From Plumapathes pennacea (taxonomy: Eukaryota; Cnidaria; Anthozoa; Antipatharia; Myriopathidae): DNA of 64,000 bases. Both the position numbers and the translations under genes were made by a program. Within the stretch, counting starts at the first letter, position 1. Each line of letters starts with the position of its first letter. The notes below the pieces were generated by a model, which searched no databases, was not told the DNA's origin, and was given only the letters and a program-made list of their open reading frames with translations. The DNA lies in NCBI GenBank assembly GCA_964036295.1, contig OZ038462.1, positions 29,201,759-29,265,758 of the forward strand, written 5' to 3'. Below are positions 9,462 through 53,396 of the stretch, one piece after another.

Positions 9462-12266
9462 TCACACATTAGGCATGTTTTCATAATCATCGTCTCCACT
9501 TTTCCTTGTGTGTTCAACGTTCTCATAAGGAGAGAGCAGACGATCATCTTCATTGGCTGCTCCTGCCGCTTTAATGTGCTCACGGCTGGCTTCAGACAAT
9601 GACGCGTACGTCATAACAGACGGCTCCCAGCGGTTCTCACCCAGTGCCTGGTACAAAGCTGGAGCAGCCCTGGCGACAGGCTCCTGGTGATCTCTGTTCG
9701 TGCCATCGTTCTCGTCAGGTTCTCTCGTGACCTTCATTTGCATTGCGTCATCGTCGCGTTCTTCGTTCATCTTGCTCTTTCTTCTCAGTCGTAATACCAG
9801 GAATACAATCACAGCCAGTAGAATTAACGTCACACAAGTGAAAGGGATCGCCACAATGATGACGTCACTGCAGAGCCCAGTGCTATTCACTGGAGTTTCT
9901 GAGGAGACTGAAACAGATAGAATGAAAAAATAAACATCAATTTACTTTATATAGTGTATATCGCTGTCAATCAGCATCTCAGGAACTGTGAAAAATTGAC
10001 CGTTTGTTGATTTGGTAAAGCATTACACATTAATTTGCCGCTTATAGTCGTTTACTGGAGGTCAGAAACAATTTTCCAACACTGCGTCTTCCATCTTGTT
10101 GCACTGGTTATATTTGTAGTTCCGTGGTCCTCCTCGTTAAACCAATGTTGTCTCAGTACTCACCATCCTCCTGATGTCCTCCTAGCGTAATGCTTTTTGT
10201 AAAAGTCTTGTATGACGTAACTAAATCAAATAAACAAAAAGAGACGCATTACGTGATGTATGATAATGATGTGATCATGTCACACATGCTCTTCTTAAAT
10301 TGCATTTTCACCTTTTTCTGTAGTTTGGCGGGTTGGTTTGGCTTTCGTATCTGATTTTTCACTAGATGACGTCACAGTTTGCTTTGTGTAGTGTTTCGTG
10401 TAGAAACCACATATGACGTAACTACATGAAATAAACAAAGACAGACGCATTAAGCGATTATGATAATAAAATGCTGCCCATGTCACACATGCTCTTTAAA
10501 CATGAATTGCTTCTTTACCTTTTCTTGTAGTTGGGCGGGTTTCGGCTGTCTTCTCTGATTTTCCACTAGATGACGTCACATTTTGCTGGGCAGTCATTGC
10601 TGGAAGAGCGGGATGGGTCCAACAATTCTCTGGGCAATTTGCTGAATTAACTGATAAAATATAAATTAAAGAAATATGAGCAGTCAAAAATAAAGAAATG
10701 ACAACAGAATAAGACGTAATGAAAACGTTGGCTCCCTTCTATACTTCCCAAATTTTGCATCGAATTGGGTGCAAAAATTAGGTAAAAATTACCTTCGAAG
10801 GTCTAAACGTATGTCTAGTGTGAGCACTGAAACTCGGTGAGCCCTGTAAATTTCATGAACAACCTTAAGACTAAACTCTGTGCCATCCTGTATCAAAACT
10901 AATGATTCTTTTTGTTTCTTTGGATGTCCTCCTTCTCTCTTTCCAATCTCCCTAACTATTTTTTTCATTATTCTATCAATGTTTCATTTACCCATTACAG
11001 AGATTATGTGATTTAGTAAGCGGTTTTGTCGAACACTCCCATAAAATATGTTTGATCGGCAGGCTTCGCTATCAAACCTCATTGAATTACAGTTGTATTA
11101 TGTACTCTTCCGTCAGTAATAACATGCATACAATAATTTCTGCATTTTGATTGGCTGAGCGCACGTCAATTTATCCCAAACAGTGCAAAAATGTGTAATT
11201 AACAGTGCAGAAATGTGAAATTAACAGTGCAGAAACTTGAAATTGAAAATTGCCGATAACTGGCGCGCGTATTCGCGGCAAAGCCAAACAAAACAGAAAG
11301 CGTTTTCATTCCTCAGGACGATTCCGATTCTGTTTTGAGAAAACAAAGTTCTTGAGACACTTGTGAATTGTAACAAAATTGAAAAAAGATTGCTCGACGA
11401 AAATTATTGTATGCATGTTATTAACAAGTAATCACATGATTTCTCGTGCACAAATTGCACTCGCGCGGCGCTCGTGCAATTTTGTGGTCTTTGAAAATGT
11501 ACTCGTGCTCATTTATTCCAAATTGCACTCGAAATCACGCGATTACCTATACTAACAGTTCCACAGTCATTTGGTCGTTCCCACAGACAACCCCCTTACA
11601 CTTATTTTATGACTATGGGCCTTTTCTTTCTTTGTCAATCTCATTGCATTACTAACTCACCCGTTGTTACGTTTTCACAGATGGAAGCCCGATGCAAGTC
11701 CTTTTTCACATTGTTGAACTTCCCATAATATCCTGACCGCCGGCTTCCTGCTGTCTCGGCCACATTTCGCAGTTGATATTTATTTTTAGGTCGGTTTGGT
11801 TGCCAGTGATTGATGGTCAGCGGCTTTCCACTCACCCAGGTCCAGTTTCCAGTGCTAACATTTTTGTACAAACCGATGTGCCACTTGTCCAAAAATTTCG
11901 CAAATTTCGATTTCCTCTCAATTACATTCTTGATAAACTCCCACTCATCATCAGTTTCCATGGAGACCAGATCCTGACCAGACCTTTTACACGATTCTCT
12001 GTTTTCATCCCATGTTGCTCGATTCCTGGTGTAAGTGTAGCAAGAGCAAGTTGTGCGAGCTTCTATAACAAATCATTAGATTCAAAACCTTGATTTTAAG
12101 GCTCCTTAAAAGTTTGAATAGTACAGTGCATTTCTGCATAAACCGGACGACAATTCGCTGACATTTTCAGCTCCCTAAATATTGTTCATTTACCAATGAA
12201 AGAGGGTGCCAAAATCACACAAATTAATAATGCTGAAAAATCTTCCAATGCGCGGAAAGGCCCCAT
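9462..12266 (-). CDS. Gene D: C-type lectin membrane receptor with four tyrosine motifs
   Basis: Four exons join in frame to 350 aa: 12266-12194 (signal peptide, MGPFRALEDFSALLICVILA), 12062-11661 (CTLD), 10650-10519 (stalk), 9907-9462 (TM and tail). All introns are phase 1. The CTLD (residues 25-158) shows CSCY, an ESC cysteine, LVSMET, EWEFI, WHIGL, WTWVSG and a closing SICE cysteine. The calcium-site positions are degenerate (QPNRP; FNN in place of WND). The stalk holds the CPENC pair and TSSS runs. TM is about residues 217-243, followed by RLRRKSK. The tail has Y288 (ALYQAL), Y303 (MTYASL), Y330 (SPYENV, fits the ITIM consensus) and Y344 (DYENM, a PI3K-type YxxM). A second stalk-like exon (about 10390-10317) is a partial duplicate of exon 3. 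Ligand unknown; signalling is inferred. Confidence 0.85.
11118..11550. mobile_element. Copy of the TGCAGAAAT palindromic repeat
   Basis: Closely matches 33116-33480 (ACATGCATACAATAATTTC, GGCTGAGCGCACGTCAATTT, tandem TTAACAGTGCAGAAATGTG units). Unlike that copy, its right end is not a long inverted copy of its left end. It lies in the intron between CTLD and stalk exons of gene D. Confidence 0.65.
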
Positions 12267-12309
12267 TGCTTATTTCAGGACTATCTGTGAACTAACCAAA
12301 TCAGAACAG

Positions 12310-13890
12310 AATGAGAGTTTCCCAGTATTCCAGAGTCACCAGTATTCCACTTCAGTTGGCACTACAGTGTACTGAAACTGCTATCGAACGCCACACTACC
12401 AAACTACCCTTACCGACAAAAAACGTCATGGAGTTACTAACTCTATGCTTGACTTCCACGTACTTCCAGTACAACGGAAAACACTACCGACAACTACACG
12501 GAACAGCAATGGGTTCACCGGTCTCTGTTATTGTAGCAGAAATTGTGATGCAACACATCGAAGAACGCGCCCTTGCAACCTACGAACAAACGCTGCCTAT
12601 CTGGCTACGATACGTCGACGACACGTTTACTGCTGTACACAAAGACGACATTGACTCCTTCCACAAACACCTGAACGACCAAAACCCTGACATACAGTTC
12701 ACTAAGGAAATCGAAGACAACGGAAAACTTCCGTTCTTAGATTGCCTCGTGAGCCACGACAACGACAGGCTACGAACAACAGTCTACAGAAAACCAACGC
12801 ACACTGACAGACTACTTGACCAGACTTCTTACAACCCTACTTCACACAAGGCTACCACGATCAAAACGCTGACGAAACGAGCGCAATTACTTTGTGACTC
12901 TCCCGACGACTTACTTAACGAAACCCGACACCTGGAACGCGTTTTCCAGAAGAACGACTACGACCTAACTTTGTCAAACGCAACACTCACAAGAACACCG
13001 CACCCAACGAGACTACCGACAACGAAACCACTGACGACACAACTCCATTGACCTTGGCCACACTACCGTACATCAGAGGCACCTCTGAGACGATAGCACG
13101 TATTCTATGACCCTACAACATCCGGGTAGCCCACAAACCCATCACGACTCTACGCGACTTACTGACCAACGTAAAGGACAAAGACGAACCCATCAACAGA
13201 CAGGGAACAGTATACAGAATATCTTGTACTGACTGCAAAGCCACCTACATTGGTGAAACTGGCAGAAACCTCAACACGAGACTTACTGAACACAAACGAG
13301 CTACCAGAAACGGCGACATCAGAAATCACATTTCTGAACACCACCGACAGACTAAACACGACATCAACTGGGACTCTGCTGAATGCATCAGCCACAGTAC
13401 CAACTACTACCAACGACTTACACTGGAAAGCTGGTACACAAACTTAGAACGGAAACCTCTCAACAGATGCCAACAATTACCGGCACCTTACAAACGACTG
13501 ATAGATGACATCAAACGCAACCGAACGAACAATAGACTAATCAACAGGACAAAAGAACATCTTTTGATCGTGGTAGCCTTTAGAGGGCCACACGTTTATT
13601 AGCTCTGCTATTATGTGCTACCCTCGTTAAATAAAGACATTACTTACTTACTTACTTACTTACATCAACTGACATCAACAACATCAACACAACCAAGCCG
13701 ACTCGACCAACCATAGGCCGACATAACGGACCAATCACTTCTACGACCAGAGACATATATACCGCCATCTGACGAATACTTTTCACTTGACTCTGAAGAT
13801 GACTTCCGCTCAGGTAGTCGAAACGTCAGTCACCAACAACAGTCTTTCTGGAGACTACTCTAACCCGGACGATCACAACCAACCTACAAT
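12310..13890 (+). mobile_element. Penelope-like element: reverse transcriptase plus GIY-YIG endonuclease, decayed
   Basis: The RT frame (12311-13051) starts in the middle of the fingers/palm (VTSIPLQLAL), then has HGTAMGSPVS and the catalytic box RYVDDTF, with the Penelope-type tail LPFLDCLV and VYRKPTHTDR. A downstream frame (about 13055-13560) gives the linker and a GIY-YIG nuclease: GTVYRISC, TYIGETGRNL and RLTEHKRA, with the later LESWYTNLE. RT and nuclease are separated by a frameshift near 13030 and a stop near 13109, so the copy is dead. The 5' end is truncated. The left border (12310) falls exactly where homology between the gene D leader and the 14504-14550 leader ends, so the element removed or displaced the D promoter. 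A non-LTR tail is nested at 13557-13663. Confidence 0.9.
13557..13663 (+). mobile_element. 3' tail of a non-LTR retrotransposon or SINE with (ACTT)n end
   Basis: A short insert ending AATAAAGACATTACTTACTT with repeated ACTT units lies inside the 3' part of the Penelope-like element and interrupts otherwise continuous CATCAAC-rich sequence. Such short-unit tails are typical of LINE/SINE 3' ends. Confidence 0.5.
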
Positions 13891-13952
13891 TTTGTCTGTG
13901 ATAACAATGACGGGCAGTCGTTGACTTTGTCATTTCTGTACTTATCAAAGTT

Positions 13953-14259
13953 AAGGTGAAGTAATACGGGCAACATTTTCTTGCAACTTGTCGTGCAACA
14001 AAGTTGCGTAGCAAGTTGCGGCCCGTTGTTGCACGTATTACTACCTACGCACGAAACTTGTTCTGCAAAAAAACTTCGTGTTGCGAGTTGCGGCAACACG
14101 TTGCAAAAAGTAGAAACCAAGTCTACTTTTTGTAACATGTTGCCAGAACTCGCAACACGAAATTTTGTTGCGTGCGTAGGTAGTAATTAAGTGCAACATA
14201 GGCCGCAACTTTGTTGCACGACAAGTTGCAAGAAAATGTTGCCCGTATTACTTCACCTT
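13953..14259. mobile_element. Foldback MITE, about 307 bp, almost entirely palindromic
   Basis: Begins AAGGTGAAGTAATACGGGCA and ends with the inverse TGCCCGTATTACTTCACCTT. Further inverted pairs follow inward (CAACTTGTCGTGCAACAAAG with its inverse; TACCTACGCACG with CGTGCGTAGGTA; GTAGAAACC near the axis at about 14118). No coding potential. Confidence 0.85.
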
Positions 14260-14430
14260 TAGTAACCGTTCATTATTTTCTCGATTGGCTGACGCGATTG
14301 GACACGACGGCAGAGTTGCTTTCATTGGCGAAACACAGCATTTCGAGTTGAATCTTTCATTGAAGACCTCAGCACAGTCGCATAAGACAATCTAGTAAGA
14401 ACTGCATTACCTGACGATAGTTTCACTTAC

Positions 14431-14503
14431 CAATTACAGAGGGTTCCTCAATAACACAAATTAATAATGCTGAGAAAACTTCCAATGCGCGGAAAGGTCT
14501 CAT
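14431..14503 (-). CDS. Orphan signal-peptide exon, alternative first exon of gene D or relic
   Basis: 73 nt from ATG (14503) to a GT donor (CTGTAATTG|GTAAGT, 14431/14430), coding MRPFRALEVFSALLICVIEE. Length and phase (1) are identical to exon 1 of D and E. It could splice directly to the CTLD exon of D at 12062, skipping the exon 1 whose promoter was hit by the Penelope-like insertion. Alternatively it is the remnant of another gene copy. Confidence 0.6.
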
Positions 14504-14554
14504 TGCTTCTTCTTCGACCGCCTCAGTGAACCAACCGAATCAGAACAGTCCGTG

Positions 14555-14592
14555 ACTTGAGAAACCGAAAGTAAGCAGGAACTGACGTCATG
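14555..14592 (-). promoter_or_regulatory. ISRE-like and CRE motifs upstream of the orphan exon
   Basis: GAGAAACCGAAAGT (14559-14572) fits the GAAANNGAAA core bound by IRF transcription factors. TGACGTCA at 14583-14590 is a perfect CRE. Both lie 55-90 bp upstream of the ATG at 14503, matching the arrangement at 8709-8736. Confidence 0.45.
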
Positions 14593-15919
14593 TCATGATT
14601 GCTGAGGCTTCGGATTACATTGTTTTAAGCTGGCGTTCAGCACGAAGTGCTGAAAAGCGAAGCTTCATGCGATCCAGTCAATTGGAATGTGTCCCGGTGC
14701 TGTCAACAATGGATTCCAAATATGGAAGTCGTTCTGTTCCCAATTTGGGCAGTATCGATATTACCGAAACGCAACAAAATCGAGAACGCGATCATCGAAG
14801 TAGTTTTTGCGGTGGTATTTTAAGCATCCCACCTTATTGCAGTTAAGACTGCGTCAGTCAGTCAGTCCGTCACATGACGAGCCGCACGCCTTGACAACGG
14901 CCTTTCGGTAGGAACAATTTGTCCCCACCGCCTGTGGAGTGCGGTCTGCTTGGTATGAATGACAGAGGTGTAAACTCCAAACCATTTATAGCACAATCGG
15001 TGAACCAATAATCACTTTGTCCTGAATTAGAAATTGTAATTCAGCCGGCAATCGTGCTTTGGGGTGCCTGTTTCTCACTCTATAACAGAAGTCGCGCTTA
15101 TGTATCTAACGAAAGAGCTTGACGTCCAGTAAAACAAATCTTACTAGTTTTCCGCCAGTCACAAATAATGTCATTGATTTGACTTCACTGTGCAATATTT
15201 CCTCACAAAGATTCGTGTCGAAACACGCACTGCCTGAGAACATTACAGTGGTCAGGCAGTCGCCGAAACATTCAATAAATGGTTTCTATGAATCGCAATC
15301 ACAAAGCTATAATATGTCCGTTCAATCAAAGCCTGTTAAAGTCAGCGAGCTCTTCCCTGTTATTTCACGTTATCGCGTTTTGTGACTGAATCAGCTGCTA
15401 GCAGACAATGTGCCGAATCGAAAATCAATTTTTCTAAATCCGAACTTCAAATTAGATGCTGAAGCCGTTATCAAAATCTTACAAAAGACTGTTTCAAGGC
15501 TAGTTATCAGTGAAAAATGTCCTGCGGTGTTATTCCAGTAATAGTCGATTCAATCAGGCTCATCTACATCAGGCAACTCTCAGCTGTCATGAAATCAGCA
15601 TGATAGCATCCAGTTCCTGTTTTAGGAATAAAATTACATTCGCGGGGCATTACTATTTTACGCGAGAAGGACAAGAGGCAGGATCGAGAGAGCTAGCGAA
15701 TCACTTGTGTAGTGGTATAATCAGTTGAGGGTAAGCTATTGCTATTTCAGTTAATCCGCGAGATTTATTCGGGCCGATTTCCCGTGTGTACGTTCTGGCC
15801 ACATGTTAGGTTTTGTGGCCGGATCTTGCTCTGCCATTGTTTAGCTGCAAATTTCACAATGGGTAGATATATTAGTAGACTTATGTTTCTTGAAGTATGG
15901 CTCATAGCTTTAAAAATTA
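14593..15919. other. No gene recognised; old repeat sequence
   Basis: Several short frames are present, none recognised. The part 15160-15260 (TTGACTTCACTGTGCAATAT ... GTGGTCAGGCAG) is an inverted, diverged copy of 18247-18350. Confidence 0.45.
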
Positions 15920-19518: not shown

Positions 19519-19522
19519 CAAA

Positions 19523-20440: not shown

Positions 20441-20499
20441 CAAAGACGAGAACCTGTGTAAAGACGGCGATTCTTGACAAGCGCTTGATAGCGGATTAT

Positions 20500-20790: not shown

Positions 20791-20805
20791 AAGAAAACCG
20801 AAGTC

Positions 20806-21944: not shown

Positions 21945-21949
21945 TGCAC

Positions 21950-23270: not shown

Positions 23271-23271
23271 A

Positions 23272-23715: not shown

Positions 23716-23719
23716 CAAG

Positions 23720-25505
23720 CAACTAAAACAGCAACTTTTGTCGGAAGAGAAAGAAGGGACTGCGTTGCAGTCTACAAATGATTGCGAATGATTTGTACTC
23801 TGTTCCAGTCCTTCACTGTTGTACTGCACAACTAAATACACGCACATCTGACGCCATGCGTATTTTAACAAATCGCAAAGCAATATTTCTTACGTCGGTT
23901 GTATTGAAACTAATAGCAGAAACCAATCATCATAAACAAGAGCCAGTCCATCCCTATCAAAATACCTGTCCTTGTTGTTCCATTTAATTAGCTTTTAAAA
24001 TATTTTGAGAGTGGAAAAACCGGCTGGATTTCGGTGTGGAGTGGGCTTGGAGATAACAAATTGACATCTCCTTTCCCAGGCATGTCTAGGTCCATTAATA
24101 GAGGTGACATACGATAAACAAGAGATACTGCAACGAGGAGAACAACAATTGTGTTTATTAAGAAGTGCGTTTTTTTCTTTACAATATTTCCGCTATTCTC
24201 CAAGTAGTTTTGTTTCTTGACATAAAATTATAACCCTGGCTCTTCCGCTAAACTATTTTAGAGCATTACAAATAACCTGGATGTATTAAAACTTGAGATA
24301 TTATAGTTATCGAGACATGCAGTGTTTAATACAAATTCTCTAAACCTTTTAAGAAGAAAATGTATGAGTGACGTAGTGATAGTTCAATCATACTTCGTCT
24401 GAGCAAGTCAAAAGTCAAGTTCTCCATACTGTGTGATATATTTATAGCGTGAAACTGAAGGAGAAAATTCAAGTTGATAACGACGTTTACGTGAAAAATA
24501 AACTATTGCGGCCAAAGCGAAGCAAAGGGTTTATAATTTTATTACTTTATTTATAAATGTAATTGCCTGGCTTGTAAACGGGCCTACAAAAAAGTTTGTT
24601 CATTGTGAACCAAACTTTATGATGCAAGGCAATTAATTTCACTAAAATATTTTTCCCAGGTTTTTCCCACTTTATAGCTAAGATCTGGTAAAATATTTTA
24701 GTGACACTTGACTGTGTGATCCCTTCAACAGATTGTTCCATATTTTTCAACATTAAGAGTCCGTTCATACTTAGCTCGTTAAAATGGGATCGATCCGAGA
24801 TAAGTACCGATAGCGACCTGAGATCAACCATAGATTGACCCGAAATCGACCCGATATCAATCCGAAATCGATCCGAGATCGTATTTGGCGCGCGTTCACA
24901 CTCGAGAAAAAGTCGACTGTTCACATTCGGCTCGCATTTAGTTATAATTCCATGTATAGACGTAACTCGCCTTTCTACGAGTTTCTCAAAATAAAGCGCA
25001 ATCTTTTTACAAGCCTAAAACCTAGCCAAAAACCGCATTAAAAGCAAAATATTTTAACTTGATACAGTTTCAATAGCTTCTCCGACACTCTATTTTCTGC
25101 TCCTTCCAGTTTACAATGTAGACAAGAGACAATCCTAACGGTTCAAACTGGAAAAGAAAAGAAGAGAAATATTGTAAACGGCTTTTAATCGCAAGGAAAA
25201 GCAATTGTAATGGAATGTTGATTTAAAAATATCGAGAATTAAGAGATAAAGTGTTAGTTTTTACTGGCTTGAGAGGCAATATTGAGGCTTGGAAATTATA
25301 ATAACGTCCTATAAACAAAGCCAATAGTTGACTCAAATTGTTTTTAGTGCGTTCGTTTGTAAAAATAATCAACAGATTTTTTCAAAAAATGGAAGTGATC
25401 TTTGCAAATGGAGTTGCCAAGATAGCCTGGAAAAACGTACGAGATCCAACAACAGCTTTCAAATGGTAGATAAAAGGCTCAGCAACATAAAAAGTGTCGA
25501 ACGAC
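23720..25505. other. No gene recognised
   Basis: Includes a run of GATCGA/GATCCGA-type units (24784-24890: ATCGATCCGAGAT, ATCGACCCGATATC), probably a MITE. A 24340-24480 stretch is shared with 200-250 and 46516-46600. No tail exon for gene C was found here. Confidence 0.4.
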
Positions 25506-25510
25506 TAGCT

Positions 25511-25532
25511 TACCTGACGTAGCAAGCCTTTG
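25511..25532 (-). other. Candidate 22-nt mini-exon downstream of the gene C TM exon
   Basis: Bounded by TTATTTTTACAG and GTAAGC on the minus strand. Joined to the TM exon it reads R-YKGLLRQ and restores phase 0. It resembles in sequence (ATACAAR start) and position the 25-nt candidate in gene B at 36899-36875. Confidence 0.35.
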
Positions 25533-26151
25533 TATCTGTAAAAATAAAAGTATAATAAGAAAGAACGTTAGAGGAAAGACAACCGTTGCTTTTTGTGTTT
25601 GTTGTTCGGAACACTGGAGAAACGAAGTTCGAACTTGTTGCAAACGCTTTCTTTTTGTTAAGAATATCAAAATACAGGAAACATTTTTCATATGCTTTTG
25701 CCGAAAAATGAACAATAATTGTGAACAGCTCTTTTTTTTTCTCTGTCTCTCTTAGATTAAATATATATATCACAGCACAACAATGATTATCTTCCTAACA
25801 GGGCTTTAGTCGAGTAAACGTCGGAGACACTGCCAACAACCTCAACCTTTTTTGTTGAGAATGCGTGAGTCGCTCTTCCAAATATTTGGATGAGTCAAAC
25901 CAGTTTCTTTGTCTCAACAAATCGGTCATACGAGTCAGGGCTGCCCCGCATGTGCAGTGCGGTAAACTGCTGACTGTTTTCGTGTCCACTATGTTCTTTG
26001 AAACGAGGCTTGGTTACATAGGGCTCGCGCACGCTCAACGAAGAAATTCAAACTTGTTGGCAGAACCTTTTATTTTCCACGTTTCTAGTAAGGAAGATTC
26101 AGGGAGCCTCTGCTCGCAGGGTCAACAGTGGTGATTGAATCGTAACATCCC

Positions 26152-28602
26152 TCACCTGGTTTTTCTCTTCCGAGTTTTAATCCAGAGAACGACAATCAGA
26201 ATGCTGATCGTAACCAGTCCAGCGACAGCTACAACTGTACCGGTGATAACATCGTGCTGTTTTAGGGTGTGGTGGTTGACCATTAGCCTTTGAGAAGGGT
26301 CAGCTCCTAAGAGTAACATGTCCTTAGTTAGCATTGTGTGTACATGTACGTGTATGTAGATATTATATAGGGCTCATGGCCCGGTTTGAAAGCGGCTTTG
26401 CTGAAAGACCAACTTTCTTTCTTAACTTCCAACAGCTTAAAGCTTTTTTAGCTTAAAACTTGTCAAAGTCTCAATTCTGAACGAAAAAAAAAATAGTTTT
26501 TAAGGCTTAAAGATGACCAAAATTTCGGACCTAATCCAGCTGAAGCGTGCTTTGAACAACTAGTCGCAGGCATAGCGGAAGCTTCCGTAAGCGGACACTC
26601 ATGGGAAACCCGAGAAAAGAGTCCGTAACTGAAAATGTCCGCTTGCGAGAATTTGTAAATACAGAGTTTGACTGAGCTATAGTCACTTAGACGGGGTTTC
26701 GTAAAGACGTCCGTAAGTAGAGCCAAGTAAGTGGAGTCGATCTACCCAGAGATTTTCGACTGCATGCGTGTAAGTATAATTGCATTGCATGGTTCATATG
26801 TGTACGTCGACAACTACATGAATGTCTGGGTAATACTTTCTCTATTTATTTGTGCAAGTGCCGGGTATGTCAGCTTCTTACCGTTAGTAGGACGACTATC
26901 ATCCGCAGCAGTGAAATGCTTAGATCCTGGGAAACTATGAGCCACATTTCCAATGGTACTAGTCGTGGTTTTACTGCTTCTCTCGATGCTGGGATCTAGT
27001 GCAATATCAACAGGAGGTACATCTTCAGATCTGCTGGGACCGAGAACGGCTGCTTGCGCGTCAAGTGTGGGAACCAACGTAGACGTCTGTGTGTTTGAAG
27101 TAGGGATTGGACTTTTCTCATGCACAGAGTGAAGCTCACTTGTAGTAACCCTAAACGGACTCTCTGTAGTCTCTCGAGTAGCGTCCACATCGCCTGTATT
27201 GTAACTGTTGTTTTGCGGTGTTGTCGTTGAGTCGGTCATCGGAGTGTGATGGTCAGCGGCGGTGGAATCAGGCATTTTATCTGTCTTCTGTGCTTGCGGG
27301 CTCGTCTTTGCTTCAGTTGTAGGAACACGGGTGCTTGTTGCTCTGGTAGTTGGTCTGGTCGTGGTTCTTACGGTCGTGGTTCTTATAGTAGGGATTTTCT
27401 TCTTCCAAGCAGCTTCACAGTTTTTCTCACCTGGCTGACACGTTTCTATTAAAAATGTAAGAGAGGGCAGCTTCATAGAAGTGCTATGATAAAATTTCAA
27501 AGGTTCGCTGATTGTCTATTCCGACTAAACATTAGGATCCTAAAAACAAACAGACGGTATGTTGAATATTAGGCCAACAGTCTATCAATGTTATAGAATT
27601 TGTACCTAAAACAGGTTGCTGCATGAACCACAAGGAGGAATTAAAGGAGAAAAATGACAAACCACAGGTTCGTTGGATCTTTACCTCACAACAGTTGCGA
27701 TGTTAGAGCGAATAAAGGACAGATTCAAAGAAGGAAGGAAGAATGAAATGTAAATTAAAGGGAAAAGAAGATGGGTGGATGGGTGTATGGATCAGTGGAA
27801 GTTAGGATTACTGGATGGAGAAGAAGGGAAAGGAAAGGAAGAAGGATGGTATGGGAAAACCAGACAAGAAAGGAAGGGAATAGAAGGAGGGGAAGTTGTG
27901 GAGGGACAGTAAGAAAGCAAAAGAAAGCAAGAAACAAAGTTTCATCCGTCCATCCAGGTGAAAGTTACTTCGTAACCCTCAATAATTTGGCGACTCGTCT
28001 CAGGAAGCAATGGATGCTAGTCCGTTTGAGAACTAGATTTAATTTGCGTTGGTGTGGAGATAAAACGTAACCTATGATTTATCAATTCAAGGTTGATGTG
28101 GATACGAGAGGTTTGAAGCTCACGTTTCGAGCGTTAGCCCTTCGTCGGAGTGGTTCGTAGGAAGAATAGTTGACACTAAACAAGATTGTAGTACCTTTCA
28201 CTTGCTCACAAATGAATCCCCTTCCCAAAGCATCGCGCATGTCATTAAACAGCCCTTCCTTGTTTTCTGGCCAGTGCTTAGCCATCACAGCAATGTGCAA
28301 ACGTCCTCGGTCACCGTTTGGCTCGGTTGGCTGCCAAGGCCAACAACCAGTGTAGTTACAGTCGGCCCGCAGAGGCACCCCGCTCTCCCACCACCACGTG
28401 CCGCGTACTTCCTGCAAACCGATGTGCCACTCGTCCATCAGCGTCGTTCGGTTTTTGATCTGCTTAAGCATAAATTGCCATTCTTCTCTTGTTTCGAGGG
28501 AGACAAGGTACGCCCCTTCATTTTGGCATGTCGTCTTGGCAGTCCTCCAGTACGCTGGTCTTGGATGGAACGTGTAGCAGGAACAGTTTGCAATGACGTT
28601 TG
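26152..28602 (-). CDS. Gene C: C-type lectin membrane receptor, EPN-type, no signalling tail found
   Basis: Exons 28602-28195 (CTLD, 136 codons), 27445-26882 (stalk, 188 codons), 26306-26156 (TM). Introns 5' of the TM exon are phase 1; a first exon was not identified. The CTLD starts NCSCYTFH and has YLVSLET, EEWQF, WHIGL, WWWESG, the complete mannose-type calcium motif EPN (WQPTEPNGDRG), GLFND in place of WND, and FICE. The stalk begins CQPGEKNCEAAWKKK and is rich in Thr, Ser and Pro (TTTVRTTTRPTTRATSTR), a mucin-like, probably O-glycosylated spacer. TM is VITGTVVAVAGLVTISILIV, followed by WIKTRKRKTR. Read through the donor, the frame stops at once (TGA at 26152-26154), giving a short basic tail. 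Splicing instead to 25532 would continue it, but no ITIM exon was found. Confidence 0.75.
28080..28165 (-). repeat. Penelope-type 3' end fragment
   Basis: On the minus strand it reads CCGACGAAGGGCTAACGCTC followed by GAAACGTGAGC. This resembles the CTGAAGATGAC...GTCGAAACGTCAG signature at the 3' end of the Penelope-like element (13793-13830). It lies within the gene C intron, about 30 nt from the CTLD exon donor. Confidence 0.35.
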
Positions 28603-30297: not shown

Positions 30298-30552
30298 ATG
30301 AAAGCCCCAAGTACGTTGATAATAATAGTGCTTACACTATTGTTAGGAATGACGAAACAAGATACTACTAATGATCGGGATTCCTACCTCTCGTTTGTCC
30401 AGGACTTGAAAATACAACTGTTGATCCAGCGGCCAGAAGACTCAAAACAAATATCAGGGCTAAGTCATCCATACTCCCCAACTATCGAGAAACGTGTTTG
30501 GTGCGTTCAAGTGCAAGACTGGCGGAATGGGTTCGTAGTATTCTTTGTTCAG
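30298..30552 (+). CDS. Hypothetical secreted protein, first exon
   Basis: ATG followed by a strong signal peptide (MKAPSTLIIIVLTLLLGMTK, cleavage plausible after about residue 20), then a polar segment with RPEDSKQISG and VWCVQVQDWRNG. A possible donor lies at TTTGTTCAG|GTAACG (30552/30553). No domain is recognised and no following exon was found; it may be chance. Confidence 0.3.
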
Positions 30553-32469: not shown

Positions 32470-33050
32470 TAATGAACAGAAACAGAATATAGATATAAAA
32501 GAACATTTGAAAAGACAAGTGGTAACACTTGCAGCAGTCAAGGGGAGTCTTGTAGTTGGTTTACTGGTCGATGGAATAGCTGCATTAGTCGCAGGTTGTG
32601 TATATTTTATCGTTGGAATTGTCTTCACCAAAGCTGCTTCACAGTTATCTTTGTTTGGCTCACAATACACTTCACGTCTCGCACGTCTCAGAGATTATTC
32701 CTAACTTTGTCCGTCCACTGTTTTTGTTCCAATTCTTTGCCATCGCAGCAATGTGCAGACTGTTCCTCTATCGCCGTTGGGTTCAGGTGTCTGCCGAGGC
32801 CAACAGCCGACGTTCTCTCACTCTTGGGCGGGCTGCAACACTATTCCACTTTGCCACCACCACGTTCCTTGCTTCTCCATCAAGCCGATGTGCCGTTCGT
32901 GATTCATTGTGGTGCGGTTTTGGATAAACTGCCATGATTCTTTCCTTGTTTCCACTGACACTAAGTCTGCGCCTATCTCTCTGCACGTTTTTCTGGCGTC
33001 GCTCTAGTACGCACGCATAACAGGAGCAGTTCGGTCTTGTCACAGCTGTA
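32470..33050 (-). pseudogene. Gene F: disrupted CTLD with attached stalk fragment
   Basis: Minus-strand fragments show NCSCY, IGADLVSVET-like, HIGL, WWWQSG-like and TPEPNGDRG-like segments in different frames, so several frameshifts have broken the lectin domain. The stalk start CEPNKDNCEAALVKTIPTI follows within about 60 nt, without the intron of several hundred bases seen in the other genes. The stalk is most like gene C (GEKNCEAAWKKKIPTI). The short gap implies an internal deletion rather than a processed copy, since no poly-A or complete cDNA structure is seen. Confidence 0.7.
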
Positions 33051-35902: not shown

Positions 35903-38900
35903 TTACACAATCCCAGCATATGTGGGATCTTCTGCCTCCTGATTTTGAGCTGCGGCTTCTTCCTGATTGGCTGGAGCAGGAGCCTGGGCCGAGCGGATGT
36001 CTGCGTAAACTGTCGGCACGTACGGCTCGGGTTTAACGACTTCATTCTTGCCATTCCCGCGAGAAAGTGTCAGGTCGGCGTAGACAAGTTCCGCTGGTTT
36101 CTGTAAAATCAATAAAGGGCACCTTTTGAAAATAATCTCGCCGCAGAGGTCCAGAAAATGTGAACATCATCAGTAGCAATGCTAGCAATACAAAAATCAC
36201 AAGGCAAACTCAGAAATGCAGAACTTTAACTTCAATATACCAAATTAAAAATCATAAACTACGCTTATCAAAAACACGAGCATTGACAGTTCAGGGGTCG
36301 GGAGAGTTTCTAGATTGAGTCCTGAATTCGCATTTGGCGGTGAAAATGATATGAAGTACGAGGGAGTTACTGCATGTTTTTGTTTACATGAAATAGGTAC
36401 AGTACAAGGCTGAATTTGGTTCCTACACCGCGAAAATGTAATAAATTGATAGCAAAATAGACAAGTAGCACTTTTAGGCCAAACGAAACGATTCTCGCTA
36501 ATTTATCTGGGGCCCTAAAAATGGCGGATCAAGCACGACTGTGGATTTCGGCGCACAAGACTGGTCCGTCTGTTGTTTCTATTTAGCATACGCAGGAATC
36601 TTTACCTTTCCCTTGTTATTTTTCTTGCTCTTGTCCACCGTTGCGTACAGACCCTCTGCTGGCGGCTGCTGTCCGTCTGTAGTCAAAGCGAGGCTTTTTG
36701 AAAAAAAAAATACGTTGCTTAATACGTTCAATCTATAAATTTACACGTTCAGGAAATGCACAAGATCGCATTGAAGCTATCTGAGTGTTGTATAAAGCTG
36801 CCTAAAATAGCGAAAGCTGTTATGAAACACTAACACTAATAAAATCCCGCTTTTTTTTTAAATATCTCACTTACCCTCCGTTAGACAGTTCTTGTATCTC
36901 TGTAATGAAGAAAAAAAGGGGGGGGATACATGAGTTTATAGGAGTTTTGGTTGGCACATGAGTTGTTGAAGTAGACAAGATATGTGTAGTGGTCGGCGAT
37001 GCTTGGAATTTTGTTCGGTAGGGCTGCAATGTTGATAGATATGGTAAACCGGAAGTGTAACGTGGTAGCGCTGAAGGGTAAGAAAGTAAAGGTTGATGCA
37101 TAAAGATGGTGTGCATATTAAAAGTGCTTAGTGTGCATGTTAAAACTTCAGTTGAATCATTGGATAAAACGTATGATAAATCATCTAAAAATCGACATTA
37201 GCTAAACGCCGTTAAGAAGTTTCTTTAACGTCTTTCCATATCGACTTTTAGTTGATTAATCAGCATATTGGTTTGTCTCAACGCCGACGCCGAGTCTAAA
37301 AGCAAGCACATAAGGAGGCAATGTAGCCGAGTGGTTAGGGCGCCGGACTTAAAATCCGAAGGTCCTAGGTTCAAATCTCGCTCTGGCCACTTAGCTGAAT
37401 TTGCAACACGGTAGCCCTGAGTTAAAATCCTCGGCCACACATTTTTTAGCCAGTCCAATGAATTCAGTGTTGGGTAGCTTTTAAAAAAGTGTCGAGTTCC
37501 TAGAGTTCCATACTCACGTTTCTTCTGTGACCTCCGGCGACACAAAATAATTATCACCAAAATGGTTGTGGCTATGACGAGTACGGAGATACCAGCGGCA
37601 AGAACGATAATGATTGTGGAGTTGGATGATCTGTTGTTGTCGGCTCCAGGCTGCTCCGACTCGTTGATCTTAGTAGTGTGTATATAAGTGTGTGTCGAAT
37701 AATCTGGAAGAGAAAAGAACATTCAGTGCCAAGTTAGTTCAGTTTAAACCACTTTGTTGATGATTGGCCGGCATTGTAAATGGCGCACTCATGAGAGTCA
37801 GGCTTTTAAGCACAGTCGTAATCTTTTCAACTCCTGAATTTTATAGTTTTAATTTCTAATTTTAGTCTTTTAGTCTTGTAGGATGCAGGTTAGGATACAA
37901 ATAATCATCAGCAACTACTAGTTTTCTTACCAATCTTTTCATCGTAGACAGAAGTTGGGGTTTCACTCCTCGAAGTTGAAGCCTGAGTTTTCTTATCACT
38001 TGGTAAAAGCTCTTCGAAGATTTTGGTTGAAGCTTTAACAGGTATCGACTCTTCCGTTGTTTTCACAGCCTTGATACTTGTACTAAATCTGTACTCATTT
38101 TCAGTGAACTCAGTTACTTTGTGGGTTGACGTAGCAAGGTCAGGTTTGGCACTGACCGTCACTGCTTTAGGACACCATCTTGGGGTGACTTTCGTGCAAT
38201 TGCCTAAAGATGGGGGAAATGATTATTTTTCTTTGTTGATCGTACGTTGCATATCGATGAAATAGTAAACTTTTTAAAAGTAGTGCACATTGAATCCAAT
38301 TGCTTGTGAAGATATCAATGTTGCCATTATGGTTCTGCACAAATAACCCAATAAAATGCCTTATTTACAAAGTGCATGGAAAGCTAAGTAACAGGGAAGA
38401 TATTTCTTATAATAGTTGATTCAAAAGTGAAGACGTGTAGTATCATTGAGTTTTCTATTTTCTTCCCCAGCAAAATTTTCTGTTTATCGCCATCATCTGA
38501 TCACCCGTCACCTGACGTCCATGCGCCTGATCAGACAGTTAGGCTATTTTTGAAGTACTGTGTCCGTCAGCGTCTGGGCATGTTCCTACTGGATCTGAAC
38601 GCGAAAACGGCTGCATGACTAATTTTTCAAAATTATTATCACTGTTTTCCTGCGGTCAATCAATCATGCACGGTTCAGTAAGTACAGAGATGGTAATTCG
38701 GCAAGAAACAAGATACACGACTGAAGTACTTGTACAGAGCTACAGACAAACGCGTTTCCAAGGCCCGAATTCGAATTAATGGCGGACAAAAATATCGTGA
38801 CGTCAGAGCTCAAAAGTTTTACAGCTCTAACTTTTTTGGCACTAATTATGTTGAACTCCTTAGGCTATTCTGTGCCCAAATACAATGAAAATATAGCCTA

Positions 38901-39439
38901 ACACAGTGCAAAGGATGTATTTTCTGTGACACTTAAAGTGAATTAAGTATAAGGTTTCTACAGTTGTGTGTGTTATACCAAGAAAGCATAAGCTTATGAA
39001 GCTCGATTGTACTGGCCTGCCTTAAGTTCACATATGAATATTTTCTTCGCTTCCGCTACAACATCGTTGAAGAGCCCATATGAGTCATCTGGATGTTCTT
39101 TAGCCATGAGAGCCACAGTTGCTCTTCCACGGTCGTTGTTGGGTTCTGTTGGTTGCCACGGCCAGCATCCCTTAATTGTTTGACCCAACTTTGTTTCACA
39201 GGTTGTATTCAGTGGTACACCACTCACCCAGTTCCACCCACTGTCTTTCTTCAGCCCGATGTGCCACTCGTTGCCCTTCTTATCGATTTTTTTAATTTTA
39301 TCACGGATAAACTCCCATTCGTTTCTTGTTTCCATAGATACCAGGTCTCCCCCAGTCCTTTCGCATTCCCGTCTGCTAGCAGCCCATTCCAGGGCTTCCG
39401 AACTGCGAAACATGTAACAGGAACAATTCCTGCCCACAG
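35903..39439 (-). CDS. Gene B: C-type lectin membrane receptor with ITIM/ITSM-like tail
   Basis: Exons 39439-39017 (CTLD, 141 codons), 38203-37931 (stalk, 91), 37703-37518 (TM, 62), 36676-36606, 36100-35903. These join in frame; the first exon was not found. The CTLD has NCSCYMF, GGDLVSMET, EWEFI, WHIGL, WNWVSG, the EPN calcium motif (WQPTEPNNDRG), GLFND and FICE, so sugar binding of the mannose type is possible. The stalk starts NCTKVTPRWCPK and is Ser/Thr-rich. TM is STIIIVLAAGISVLVIATTI with a RRRSQKK anchor. The tail has GLYATV, LVYADL (canonical ITIM), TVYADI (ITSM form TxYxxI) and a final TYAGIV. Exon 2 ends in a GC donor (GCAG|GCCAGT). A SINE lies in the intron at 37313-37510, and a candidate 25-nt exon at 36899-36875 would change the frame. 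Confidence 0.82.
36875..36899 (-). other. Candidate 25-nt cassette exon in gene B
   Basis: Preceded by a pyrimidine tract and CATTACAG, followed by GTAAGT. Inclusion between the TM exon (phase 1) and the 36676 exon shifts the frame and stops translation before the ITIM motifs; skipping it keeps them. Splicing is inferred from sites only. Confidence 0.4.
37313..37510 (+). mobile_element. tRNA-Leu-derived SINE
   Basis: The head contains a Pol III A box (TAGCCGAGTGG, 37324), an anticodon arm like tRNA-Leu (CCGGACTTAAAATCCG) and a B box (GGTTCAAATCT, 37378). The acceptor and T stems do not pair properly, so it is not a working tRNA. A tail (CACTTAGCTGAATTTGCAAC) unrelated to tRNA follows. It lies in the gene B intron just downstream of the TM exon. 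Confidence 0.7.
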
Positions 39440-39559
39440 CTAAAGAAACAAAACAGCAAATGCCGTATTTACCTGACCGTTTAATTTTTATGTGCCTGTC
39501 ATCTAAATAATGATTATAAGTATATAGACCCACTATACTGTCCCTAGAACTCAAACGTG

Positions 39560-40168: not shown

Positions 40169-40189
40169 TTTAATGTTCGCGGTCCGTTT

Positions 40190-49500: not shown

Positions 49501-50060
49501 CAGCGTTCATAAGAAACGAAAGCAGACAACAATTGAAGGACTCAAACGCAAATTAAATACATTTTCATTCTAATTTCGTTCTTGATCCGTCATTACTAGA
49601 ATTTTATACGTGTACTGGGTCAGATATCTGCCTTGTTTGTATATACATTTATTGGGGGGCCGTGCTTTCTTGTGCGAAACTGAACTCTATTCATATATAC
49701 AGTAATTATTTGAGGCCCATGTTTTCTGTGCGCACAGACAAGTCGTCGTATAACGTATAATAAATGAACTTAACTGAGTTCGCGTGGGAAAGCTATAAAC
49801 GTTGCTACTACGTACCATCCAACTTCCTCCACAAAAGGCTAACACTCGAAACATCTGCTTAAAACTCTTTAACGGCGTTTAGCTTTCCCACGTCAACTTT
49901 AATTTGATTTATCATCCGTTTGTCTCCACGCCGACACAGTTTAAAACTATTTCTCACAAAATTAATCTAACACTGCATGCAGACTATTCATATACAATAT
50001 ATATATGTGGTCGCTTATTTCTACAAACAACTGCTAGTTGAACGTCGAAAACCGCCGCCC
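46516..50060. other. No gene recognised; scattered repeats
   Basis: 47614-47715 is a repeat also found in a PFAS intron (58065-58150). 48756-48900 and 49170-49330 are two copies of one segment (GAGTCCTGAAACTGA, GTGATG.CGTCTTT). A hairpin lies at 48958-48997. Short frames (47129-47517, 48568-48777) are not recognised. Confidence 0.45.
48958..48997. other. Strong hairpin, 16-bp stem
   Basis: ATTCCGTCCATTCTGC (48958-48973) pairs with GCAGAATAGACGGAAT (48982-48997) over 15 Watson-Crick pairs and one G-T or A-C type mismatch, with loop CCCCAGTA. Probably the tip of an old foldback element. Confidence 0.7.
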
Positions 50061-53011
50061 TTACACGATCGACTTGTTAGTAGGACTGCCGGACTCCGGA
50101 ATGTTTCCTTCCTGATTGTCTGTACAAGAAACCCTCGCTGAACGGATGTCGGCGTAAATTGTAGGAAGTGCAGGTCTGACAGTTTCATGTATGACGTTGC
50201 CATTTATCAAGTCTGTGTACGCAAAGTCTTCTTGTCTCTGCAAATGAATTATACGTCGCTTTATAACACATGCCATTGTACAATTAATCAATCCTACTAT
50301 CCACTGACAATGGTATAAAAAATCCATATGACATATTTTTATGCAAATAAAGAGGGAAAAAACGTTTCTTTCGGTTCTTGTTCGTAGAATGGCCGCACAG
50401 TTATTACCGCAATCTATCAAGTTTGGTATGCGCATCAATCGACAAAACTATAACAGCCTCACCGAACTAGGTATGATCGTGAAAATGGCTTTTATACCGT
50501 TTATTTGCAGTCAAGTTCGGCAATTATGTTTCGATTTTGGAAATTTGTGAGTTTATTCACTTTGCTTCAAACGATATATGGTTTACACTTTTGTATCATG
50601 GGACTGTTGGAATAGTAAACTCACATGTTAGACCAGTTCACTATTTGTGCTTACTGCGCATGCACCATTTTATTTTACCTTTTTCTTCTTTGTCTTGCTC
50701 CAGTCCATTGTCGCGTACACACGATCTCCATCAAATACAAAGGTGAGCTGTCCACGTGTCTGCGCGGCCCCGCGAGCGTTACTATGGAAACACAAAAAGG
50801 CGTAAGCTTTTAAAGTACATCAGTTGGTTTATAATTTGCTGCCTGTCTGACTCTATAATTGACAGGATGAACAACTAACGATCAGGACTATGACGGACTA
50901 TGACTGACTGATTGACTGACTGTGACACCGCGGAAATGCGTTTTTTTTTTTTTTTTTTGGCCATGGGTTCACCTTAATTTTAAAATCAGTGCATTGCACA
51001 AAACTGTGGATTTAAGTGCAGAATTTTTAGTTCATTGTAACGCTCGTAAATCCTCAAGACTCAACCAAGAAACTCGGTTCTCAACTAATAAGTTAGTTTA
51101 ATGCATCTAAAACATAAGTAATGCACAAGAAAACGGAGCTTGCACACGATCGAGGTAAAGTTTTACCTCGACAATAGACTGAGTTATAGAGTAATGGTGA
51201 CGAACGCTGACCAACTGAAGCGACGTCAAGAACGTAACTATTTTCGAAGAGTTCAATCCTACCTTTTCTTCTTTATCCGGATTGATCTGCCACCTGGAAT
51301 CGGCAAACAGAAAAAAACTATTTATCTGAATTGGACCATTAGTTGAAAATATATAACTTTCGGAGAGCGGCTGAAATTCAGAGCTAAGCCGGTTTGTAGT
51401 ATAAACCGTATTGCGTGCGCTAACGTGGGCTATGCTCATGGGAATTATATTAAAATCTTTTGTGCAAATACTCACGTCTCATATGAGACTTTTTCCGCCA
51501 AAGAAGAGCGACCATCACAGATAATATGACTAATAGAACGACAACAGTCGAGGTGGCAGCAACGATGACCAAAGTATTGGGTGAATCGCCGCTGCTCCCT
51601 CGTTCGGGGCGCCCACTCACACTCGACTGCGAAGGAACTATGGCGCGTATCGTATGGTGTTCCCTGGACTTCTCAGTATAATGCTGTTTATTTGTCTCTG
51701 TACCTCCGGATGTGAGCTTCCCCGTGGTGGTTGGCAAAGCTCTAGTGGTAGGAGACTGTGAAAATGTGTCTTGTTTCCAGGATTTCTGCGTACTCTGTTT
51801 GTTTGTCACTGTACCTGTAGACATGAACTTCTTTGCGGTGGTTGGCAAAGCTGTACTAGGGAACTGTGGGGGAACCGTTTTCTGCTTATTTGTCACTGTG
51901 CCTCCGGGACTGGGTTTCTTTGTGATGGTTGTCAGGGGTGTAGTGGGAGGGAACACTGGTTTTCTCTGTGTGGTGCGCTGTATAGTCCTCGTTGTGTTGA
52001 AGCATCTCTCAACAGCACCTCCCAGGCAGATATCTTCATTTAAGGAAGAATATTTTAGGGTTTTGGCTCCCAATTATAAATCGGGATTCTGTTTGATTGA
52101 TCGACTGATTAGTTAATTAGTTGCCAGGTAAATATATTTATCCACTGACTCAAGGCTAATTGACCGAGTGGTCTCGGCTGCCGTTTTTTCAGTCATTTCC
52201 TCTAACTAAACTCTCTTTAAGATGGACACCTCTCTAAAACGGACAGTTGGAGCTGGTCCCGAGGGTGTCCTTACAATTGATTGTAATCAATTAATTAATT
52301 GATTGATTATTTGATTAATTGACTGATCATTGATTGATTATTGATTAATTAGGCCATTAATTGATTGTTGAATACTAAAACTGAACTGAGGAACAGAAAT
52401 ACAGCTGTTGCCAGTGATTTATAAGCTGTAACTAACCTGTCACGTGTTCACATATAAACCCTCTTTTGACGCCATTTGTCGTAATATCGTTGAACAGCCC
52501 TTCGGTGTTTTTCGGGTAGCTTTTGGCCATCAGTGCCACTTTCTCTTTTCCTCCACTGGGCTGATGTTTCTGCCATGGTAAGCATCCCGTTGAGTTACAT
52601 TCTGCCCAGTTCAGTCGTGTTCCGCTTACCCAGGTCCAGATCCGGTTGTTTTTCATCAGCCCGATGTGCCACTCGTTCTCGTTTCTCGCCGTCGAGCGGC
52701 TTTTGATGGCATGACGGATAAATTCCCATTCCCTTTTTGTTTCCATGGATACCAGGTCTCCCCCAGTCTTCTTGCATTCCTGTCTGCTCTCGTTCCAGGA
52801 CAAGGTTTCTGAGCCGTGAAATGTGTAACAGGAGCACTTCCTGATCACAGCTAAAATAGAAATGGACACTCTTCTGACTCCCAACTACGAAGCACCTTTA
52901 CTCGGATAGTGAATAATTATCACACCACAGACTTTTTGGCAATCCTTTAGCGAGCAGTCTGCGCTTGCAAATAACGAAACCCTGCAAAGTAGTCAAGTCT
53001 CCCCCCCCCCC

Positions 53012-53057
<46 letters not shown>

Positions 53058-53396
53058 TTTTCTTCTTTTTTTCATCTGGACAGGAAAATAAAACAACACA
53101 TAACAGTTAATAGAAGAACCTTTATTACATATAATTTTCGCGACACTTTGCGAAATTAACCCGTCGGGACTTTAAACTCTGGGATATATCTTGATACCTA
53201 TGGTACACATATACGTTCGAAAATCGCGAAATATGCGCGCACCCCACACATTCGCGAAACTAATGTGTTGCAAAAATTCCCTGTATTAAGGGATTATTGT
53301 CTCACCTGTTTCTTCAGGGTGAACATGGTCCAAATAAATAATCAGGAACTGGACCAAGAGAACGCAACAAGTCCTGAATATTCCCCGCACGGCCAT
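50061..53396 (-). CDS. Gene A: C-type lectin membrane receptor with ITIM/ITSM-like tail, complete
   Basis: Exons 53396-53306 (signal peptide, MAVRGIFRTCCVLLVQFLII), 52850-52437 (CTLD), 52018-51476 (stalk and TM), 50725-50679, 50237-50061 join in frame to 423 aa. The CTLD (31-168) has CSCYTF, GGDLVSMET, EWEFIRH, WHIGL, WTWVSG, CNSTGCLPW, a degenerate calcium site (HQPSGG), GLFND and FICE. The stalk contains three imperfect repeats ending TVTNKQ, TVTNKQ and TETNKQ. TM is VIVAATSTVVVLLVILSVMV, anchored by WRKK. The tail has Y353 (RVYATM), Y372 (FAYTDL), Y393 (TIYADI, ITSM form) and ends KSIV, a possible class I PDZ ligand. A candidate 31-nt exon at 51293-51263 would shift the frame. Inhibitory signalling through SH2 phosphatases is inferred from motifs. 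Confidence 0.85.
51700..51965 (-). repeat. Coding minisatellite in the gene A stalk
   Basis: Three imperfect copies of a unit of roughly 110 nt code for LTTITKK...GGTVTNKQ, LPTTAKK...TGTVTNKQ and LPTTTGK...GGTETNKQ. Such repeats change stalk length between alleles in other surface receptors. Confidence 0.7.
53001..53055. repeat. Poly-C followed by (CT)n
   Basis: About 22 C followed by about 16 CT units, in the gene A intron between signal-peptide and CTLD exons. Confidence 0.95.

Follow-up and report, generated by a model that had tools for sequence, protein, structure and literature searches.

A minus-strand array of predicted C-type lectin receptor genes with apparently exchanged multi-tyrosine tails in the antipatharian Plumapathes pennacea

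The vertebrate natural killer (NK) complex (KLR/Ly49/NKG2) is a cluster of genes for receptors with C-type lectin-like domains (CTLDs), some of which have tails with immunoreceptor tyrosine-based inhibitory motifs (ITIMs), and in control of the NK type variable heads are paired with stable tails of the ITIM or the activation (ITAM) kind. The subject of this report is a stretch of 64,000 nucleotides from the antipatharian Plumapathes pennacea (contig OZ038462.1, here C1, C1:29201759-29265758; hereafter the window), which forms the right end of an array of predicted lectin receptor genes. The array resembles the NK complex in its clustered CTLD receptor genes and in the ITIM-type tails of some members, and it resembles PD-1, the Siglecs and the SLAM family, whose tails carry ITIMs and immunoreceptor tyrosine-based switch motifs (ITSMs), in motif and spacing only, the heads there being immunoglobulin (Ig) domains. 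The NK complex lectins are, in the available part of PMC1193534, type II proteins; in the array, by contrast, the CTLD precedes the transmembrane (TM) helix and the tail is C-terminal. In Hydractinia, the available text of PMC12065747 reports ITIM and ITAM motifs for candidate alr genes, and that of PMC11999971 gives the Alr family 41 members with V-set-like and I-set-like Ig heads. The array shares with Alr the arrangement of a cnidarian gene family in one complex and the ITIM-type motifs. Its heads, however, are CTLDs where those of Alr are Ig domains, the likeness is one of motif between unaligned tails, the CTLD exons of the window match Lectin_C only, with no Ig-type ectodomain among them, and the Ig/FN3 loci of this genome that share a tail with it (on C5 and C2) lie outside the lectin array. 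The array belongs to neither the NK complex family nor the Alr family.

The fester co-receptors (FcoR) of the chordate Botryllus are likewise of type I; their motifs comprise ITIM, hemITAM and the core Y-x-x-[ILV], and ITIM and hemITAM vary between alleles or splice forms (PMC12065747, available part). Unlike the array, FcoR has Ig and sushi heads, and no lectin domain is mentioned in that part of the source. Coral transmembrane C-type lectins (Acropora muricata P0010, Acropora digitifera P0018 and the Pocillopora verrucosa 'layilin' P0008), labelled uncharacterized or layilin in databases, share the order of CTLD, stalk, TM and multi-tyrosine tail; the P0010 and P0018 tails have YAVV..ELVYA(E/D)L..YAD(V/I) in common, and the motifs of P0008 differ. 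Anthozoans and corals are known to have expanded lectin families (PMC8260672, PMC10236652), transmembrane lectins have been counted in cnidarians (PMC8260672), and the distribution of Syk and ITAMs is treated in PMC5978004; in the available text of PMC8260672 and PMC10236652 the term 'ITIM' occurs 0 times. Among the matches listed in a search of titles and abstract beginnings of the open-access literature, there was no report of ITIM-type tails on cnidarian lectins. The ITIM-like motifs described here belong to lectins of an anthozoan whose array genes have exchanged tails, and a homologous tail occurs at an Ig/FN3 locus.

As read from the genome (290 Mb, 24 contigs), the array has been repeatedly duplicated and broken, with varied heads joined to a few homogenised multi-tyrosine tails. 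It spans ~190 kb (C1:~29.065-29.255 Mb), continuing ~137 kb leftward beyond the window into the adjoining stretches searched, and occupies the minus strand only: 18 exon queries gave no plus-strand match >35 bits across 243.7 kb. A genome search with the head of gene E returned 37 places at E <= 1e-4, 27 in the array and 10 elsewhere, the top 21 all lying inside the array. Open CTLDs occur at 17 array loci, putative genes that hold 19 such exons (two loci have two each; that of g109 has an internal deletion). At least six loci are broken, namely A and F of the window and others near 29.165, 29.138, 29.123 and 29.092 Mb. Self-comparison gave 38 duplicated segment pairs of at least 1.2 kb, same-strand without exception and 88.7-98.4% identical, including at least one local tandem repeat and one pair that is possibly a repeat element; the longest pair, which spans 7.9 kb with 98.3% identity, could conceivably stem from assembly haplotypes that were left uncollapsed. 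The birth-and-death evolution proposed in a preliminary description of this DNA is borne out by these duplications and broken loci. The same description had proposed a minus-strand cluster of C-type lectin receptors at 9462..53396, and both the cluster and its limits stand: all four open CTLD exons of the window exceed the Pfam Lectin_C cut-off (38.9-49.2 bits versus 22.6; E 1.6e-9 to 9.7e-13), the stop codon of gene B ends with base 9462 and the start codon of gene E opens with base 53396. Of its at least five related loci and a wreck in ~52 kb, four open CTLD loci and a wreck with a stop were recovered, whereas the leftmost locus proved to be a CTLD-less remnant whose tail ends early.

Comparison of heads with tails argues that tails have been exchanged between genes of the array. 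There are six loci with B-type tails and six with T1-type tails, and tail class is not predicted by head class. B-like heads have B tails in B, g194, g183, g172 and g128 and T1 tails in g118 and g088; T1 heads have T1 tails in g157, g109, g078 and g072 and a B tail in g103. Related heads therefore stand on different tails, as in paired receptors. On the head tree four changes are needed for the T1 label and four for the B label (well-supported branches alone force at least 4 and at least 3), and shuffled labels were as low in 63/500 and 78/500 cases, respectively, so that neither label is clearly clustered on a tree with long branches (C, D, B). Mean synonymous divergence over 15 pairs each was 0.53 in heads versus 0.10 in tails for the B-tail genes, and 0.63 in heads versus 0.06 in the last tail exon for the T1-tail genes; between g118 and g109 synonymous divergence (dS) is 1.07 for the head but 0.00 for the last tail exon. 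The low dS of tails set against the high dS of heads in the same genes indicates that the tails were spread by recombination or conversion. Splice sites were inspected in g118, g172 and g103, a 25-nt phase-bridging exon was recognised in g078, g109, g157 and, as one of three candidates, in g118, and g088 was assigned its head and tail by exon order alone.

The exon models were built in silico and hand-joined by matching phases. In this analysis genes are named A (the remnant), B, C, D and E by rising coordinate, with the wreck F between C and D; the window thus holds, on the minus strand throughout, four receptor genes with an open CTLD, a CTLD wreck and a remnant devoid of a CTLD. The receptors are predicted to be single-pass proteins consisting of CTLD, stalk, membrane helix and tail, and of type I where the signal exon is known: the type I topology put forward earlier is upheld for 12 of the 17 open-CTLD loci, because in these a signal exon precedes the CTLD, the TM and the C-terminal tail. 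Gene E has a signal peptide, CTLD, S/T/P-rich stalk with TM, and three tail exons; gene D a CTLD, stalk, TM and two tail exons; gene C a CTLD, long S/T/P-rich stalk, TM and short tail, with a weak candidate signal exon; and gene B a signal peptide, CTLD and stalk, followed by TM and tail within one exon. Remnant A (8645-251) retains signal exon, stalk and TM/tail, and no CTLD was found between its signal exon and tail. A 25-nt exon candidate of gene D (36899-36875) breaks the frame and was left out, and wreck F gave no Pfam match in the single frame tried.

53306..53396, minus strand: gene E exon 1, start and signal peptide (hydrophobic N-terminus, GTGAG donor, phase 1)
52437..52850, minus strand: gene E CTLD exon (PF00059 E 9.7e-13, splice sites)
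51476..52033, minus strand: gene E stalk (41% S/T/P over 154 aa) and TM (weak acceptor sequence)
51263..51293, minus strand: gene E small juxtamembrane exon (phase 1 to 2; resembles the 25-nt exon proposed in four T1-tail genes)
50679..50781, minus strand: gene E tail exon with RVYATM
50061..50237, minus strand: gene E last tail exon with FAYTDL and TIYADI (ITSM-like)
39017..39439, minus strand: gene D CTLD exon, EPN and FND kept (PF00059 E 2.5e-11)
37931..38203, minus strand: gene D stalk exon
37518..37703, minus strand: gene D stalk and TM exon
36606..36676, minus strand: gene D tail exon with LYATVDKSKK
35903..36100, minus strand: gene D last tail exon with ELVYADL (ITIM), TVYADI (ITSM-like) and TYAGI
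~32743..33015, minus strand: wreck F, CTLD remnant (internal stop, 55% to C)
30388..30472, minus strand: gene C candidate signal-peptide exon, weak (scan for hydrophobic start exons)
28195..28602, minus strand: gene C CTLD exon, EPN and FND kept (PF00059 E 1.9e-10)
26882..27445, minus strand: gene C S/T/P-rich stalk exon
26156..26306, minus strand: gene C TM exon
25070..25535, minus strand: gene C short tail without ITIM (exons 25535-25514 and 25147-25070)
14429..14503, minus strand: orphan signal-peptide exon, 80% identical to that of gene B
12194..12266, minus strand: gene B signal-peptide exon
11661..12062, minus strand: gene B CTLD exon, no EPN, FNN (PF00059 E 1.6e-9)
10519..10650, minus strand: gene B stalk exon
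9462..9907, minus strand: gene B TM and B-type tail with ALYQAL, MTYASL, SPYENV (ITIM) and DYENM
8571..8645, minus strand: remnant A signal-peptide exon
1029..1163, minus strand: remnant A stalk exon
251..643, minus strand: remnant A TM and B-type tail, stopping short of the last two tyrosine motifs

Six tail types were distinguished (T1, B, E2, D, E and C), with 3-7 tyrosines per tail; D and E align as relatives of T1. Motifs were counted against 2000 shuffles of each tail, the T1 tail being hand-joined without its small exon. Five of the six types have 2-5 Y-x-x-hydrophobic motifs. For the core Y-x-x-[ILV], the T1 tail has 5 versus 0.85 expected (0/2000 shuffles), D 4 versus 0.64 (p 0.001) and B 3 versus 0.42 (p 0.0045); C, with 1 versus 0.71, is not convincing. 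The T1 motifs are NPYDNV, QTYAEI, DTYATV, ELCYAEL, TVYADV and AVYANM, and E2 has IYQTL, VTYASL, CYDDV, DYVNW and others. The strict ITIM, taken as [VILS]-x-Y-x-x-[VIL] within the cytoplasmic tail, occurs once apiece in T1, B, E2 and D, and an ITSM-like TxYxx[VI] once apiece in T1, D and E (~0.03 expected, p 0.016-0.032). Each tail has no more than one ITIM and/or one ITSM-like motif, along with further sites of the Y-x-x-hydrophobic, Y-x-N and Y-x-x-M kinds, and the signal sits in the Y-x-x-hydrophobic core, not in the strict ITIM. The tyrosine motifs earlier ascribed to three genes are present in B, D and E, in the present naming, and in remnant A, but not convincingly in C, and 'ITIM' is too narrow a term for these tails. 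In T1 and D, LxYA[E/D]L is followed by TVYAD[V/I] at a spacing of 25-26 residues. The tail tyrosine motifs of the T1 family appear to be under constraint: when eight tails (T1, D, E, one Ig/FN3-locus tail, Acropora P0010 and P0018, P0002 and P0012) were aligned, 7 of 104 columns were invariant and all lay within three YxxΦ motifs. A rough hypergeometric estimate for 7/7 invariant columns falling in 12 of 80 positions is 2.5e-7; this figure is post hoc, and the alignment behind it was anchored on the same motifs. Overall identity between the B and E2 tails is 32%, with YQxL, TYASL, YxxV and DYxN among their invariant columns.

The T1 family, with relatives in D and E, forms a cassette of at least two exons, a homologue of which lies downstream of Ig/FN3 exons and on Acropora lectin receptors. 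The last T1 exon has close matches in the array only (6), plus D at E 0.012, and a search with the D tail reached three more places (C5:1142713, C5:977324 and C2:13789121). At the first C5 locus (L031, 1.14 Mb) an Ig exon (Ig_3 E 6e-10), two FN3 exons (E 1.2e-14 and 5.4e-7) and a TM precede a tail that reads YAQVDKSKKK, ELVYADL, DYADI, TYDNL and TYANV, and we infer that these exons form one gene. This tail aligns with those of T1, D and P0010 at z 13.7-16.5 (0/1000 shuffles as high in each case), and its two exons fit a phase-0 break in the lysine-rich stretch shared with T1 and D, provided that the donor is the GT that follows PKKPK. At the C2 locus (L032) a similar tail lies downstream of putative FN3-like exons. 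The B tail also occurs on C4 after FN3 exons, as a relative on C3 after EGF exons, and at C1:27.97 Mb behind a head not identified by Pfam. At L028 (C4:5231908-5232735, minus strand), downstream of FN3 exons, five tandem copies of a SRDYLEPVISDAPALYQELVENP-like (YLEPV/ALYQEL-type) unit were observed, tyrosine motifs having been multiplied within one tail.

Relatives of gene E were sought among database proteins, of which the best 8000 candidates were scored, and the architecture of the 19 retained was read by eye; those with names belong to Acropora, Pocillopora and Oculina. Six of the 19 (P0002, P0010, P0012, P0016, P0018 and P0019) have a CTLD, TM and YA-type tail like T1, so that the order head, stalk, TM and tail recurs in other corals; three (P0008, P0009 and P0011) have a CTLD, TM and a different multi-tyrosine tail. 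Head, TM and tail are held in one protein in P0010, P0012 and P0002, and P0012 (399 aa), whose source contig has no more than 1,247 bases, is for that reason taken to be a spliced transcript. A search with the P0010 tail (5.8 billion proteins, 42 candidates) found itself and P0020, another Acropora protein; tail-only matches are few, and the wider spread of the tail is therefore argued from whole-protein matches and from this genome. Residues 224-335 of P0012 (TM and tail) match PF15330 (SHP2-interacting adaptor SIT) with an E-value of 0.0016 that misses the curated cut-off, which is probably motif likeness.

The heads match mannose receptor 2, Mincle, dectin-1 and Lymphocyte antigen 75 among PDB sequences, mainly over their first 80-95 residues. 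Among the 19 open heads EPN and FND, which we take to be sugar-site residues, are both kept solely in C and D; the E head and four E2 heads have QPS or EPS with FND, and B- and T1-type heads are without the final D. By eye the second of the canonical disulphides (C2-C3) seems absent. Diversifying selection on the heads was tested and found not significant: the proportions of nonsynonymous (pN) and synonymous (pS) differences were 0.070 and 0.050 in the B-like clade, 0.081 and 0.108 in the T1 clade and 0.080 and 0.186 in the E2 clade, with pN not above pS in 149, 876 and 1000 of 1000 codon bootstraps, respectively. Gene conversion may be the source of the clustered amino-acid differences near the head loop.

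A candidate reader of the tails is encoded in the genome. Profile searches matched 56 SH2 exons and at least 128 tyrosine-phosphatase exons, and on C9 N-SH2, C-SH2 and protein tyrosine phosphatase (PTP) exons follow in succession, the layout of a cognate tandem-SH2 phosphatase. With the SH2 exons joined to the first PTP exons, the best PDB match is PTPN11 (SHP-2) at E 1.2e-100, against E 6.8e-82 for PTPN6 (SHP-1); the gene (C9:14486261-14494500) is an SHP-2 orthologue, and its catalytic stretch is split over two frames (..VHC and SAGIGRTG..). At C5:17.97-19.56 Mb dozens of PF00102 tyrosine-phosphatase exon matches stand in arrays, a large phosphatase expansion.

SHP-2 prefers such motif pairs, and in PD-1 LxYxxL is followed by TxYxxV/I ~25 residues on. 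We consider the best explanation of the array to be that it encodes SHP-2-recruiting, inhibitory-type recognition receptors (probability roughly 0.55), with phosphorylation, polarity and ligands that we infer. The head would bind glycan, as in C and D, which keep the sugar-site residues, or protein, where heads have lost some of them; receptor clustering would lead to tail phosphorylation by a Src-type kinase. In T1 and D the LxYA[E/D]L and TVYAD[V/I] pair would then hold both SH2 domains of SHP-2, whose docking would dampen signals from an activating path engaged at the same time. Grb2 or PI3K may dock in addition at Y-x-N and Y-x-x-M sites, and tail swaps between heads could rewire one specificity to another output. 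On this reading the receptors would act in the manner of the vertebrate ITIM receptor complexes, of Hydractinia Alr and of Botryllus FcoR.

It should be emphasized that a number of observations weigh against this explanation. The gene models are in silico predictions from genomic sequence alone; the CTLD of gene D joins in frame solely via a GC donor, and no signal-peptide exon was found when one was searched for in this gene. In g183, g172 and g128 a T1-type TM is joined to a B-type tail via a weak acceptor, a joint of which the crossed head and tail cases g118, g088 and g103 are independent. The strict ITIM was rejected as a chance-exceeding motif in each tail (p 0.06-0.19), and the motif scan found none in the E and C tails; the core motif itself is borderline in E2 (3 versus 0.99 expected, p 0.060) and in E (2 versus 0.48, p 0.064). 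The E-values of the Ig/FN3-locus tails (0.05-0.16) are weak taken alone, none of 469 database candidates (5.8 billion proteins) matched the B tail at E <=0.01, and in 10 of the 19 gene E relatives, several of them fragments, TM and tail were not seen together. Finally, Y-x-x-hydrophobic is also an AP-2 endocytic signal.

It could indeed be argued from the fit of YxxΦ to the AP-2 consensus that these are endocytic or phagocytic lectin receptors, in which the tyrosine motifs and the NPxY-like NPYDNV serve as sorting signals for taking up particles, prey or symbionts, with no SH2 signalling involved, and the endocytic mannose receptor 2 and Lymphocyte antigen 75 are among the matches of the heads. 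We regard this as possible but unlikely: in our judgement the small or acidic motif residues (YAEL, YADL, YADV), the spacing of 25-26 residues in T1 and D and the 3-5 motifs per tail suit SH2 ligands better, and the same cassette occurs at an Ig/FN3 locus. More doubtful still are adhesion or activating receptors whose tails mainly dock Grb2 and PI3K (YENV, YENM, YANM, YDNV) and promote adhesion or phagocytosis, with SHP-2 as a positive Ras-pathway effector. Y-x-N sites number 2 versus 0.40 expected in T1 (p 0.049) and 2 versus 0.28 in B (p 0.031), and Y-x-x-M occurs once apiece in T1 (p 0.047), B (p 0.17) and E (p 0.052); the invariant positions of the T1 family, however, belong to YAxV, YAxL and YAD, not to the C-terminal Y-x-N. 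That CTLD, TM and tail exons come from separate genes, or that the motifs arose by chance, is conceivable for hand-made models yet highly improbable, as phase-matched exons repeat in the same order across many copies and P0010, P0002 and P0012, the last likely a spliced transcript, unite head, TM and tail.

The presence of such tails on anthozoan lectins makes it testable whether SHP-2-based restraint of recognition predated the cnidarian-bilaterian split, and the array supplies named genes as candidates for the recognition of symbionts, microbes or self in corals. That tails resembling those of inhibitory vertebrate immune receptors were swapped from gene to gene suggests a greater age and modularity of these recognition systems than had been supposed. 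On a broader and tentative view, the array may be part of an anthozoan recognition complex in which diversifying lectin heads are recombined with a few homogenised tails and an ITIM/ITSM-like cassette is common to lectin and Ig/FN3 receptors. If so, it would be the cnidarian equivalent of the paired-receptor complexes of vertebrates, rewiring specificities to outputs in modular fashion, and a candidate for the recognition loci that remain to be found in corals and related animals.

On the plus strand of the window, exons of the purine gene PFAS (phosphoribosylformylglycinamidine synthase; 55066-62775) form the right border of the array. Gypsy-type element frames (1566-4100), the first with reverse transcriptase and RNase H by Pfam, lie between the signal exon and tail of remnant A, and a Penelope-like element (12296-13602; GIY-YIG above and reverse transcriptase below the cut-off) ends 30 bases from gene B exon 1. 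The two loci with paired CTLD exons ahead of one TM/tail are g190a/g189b (C1:29190075-29187920) and g178a/g177b (C1:29178476-29176322), and two CTLDs are also present in database proteins P0002 and P0004. Further dense arrays of Lectin_C exons occur at C1:1.05-1.20 Mb (plus strand), C1:4.32-4.59 Mb (minus strand) and C8:14.6-14.7 Mb, most of which outscore those of the window in Pfam.

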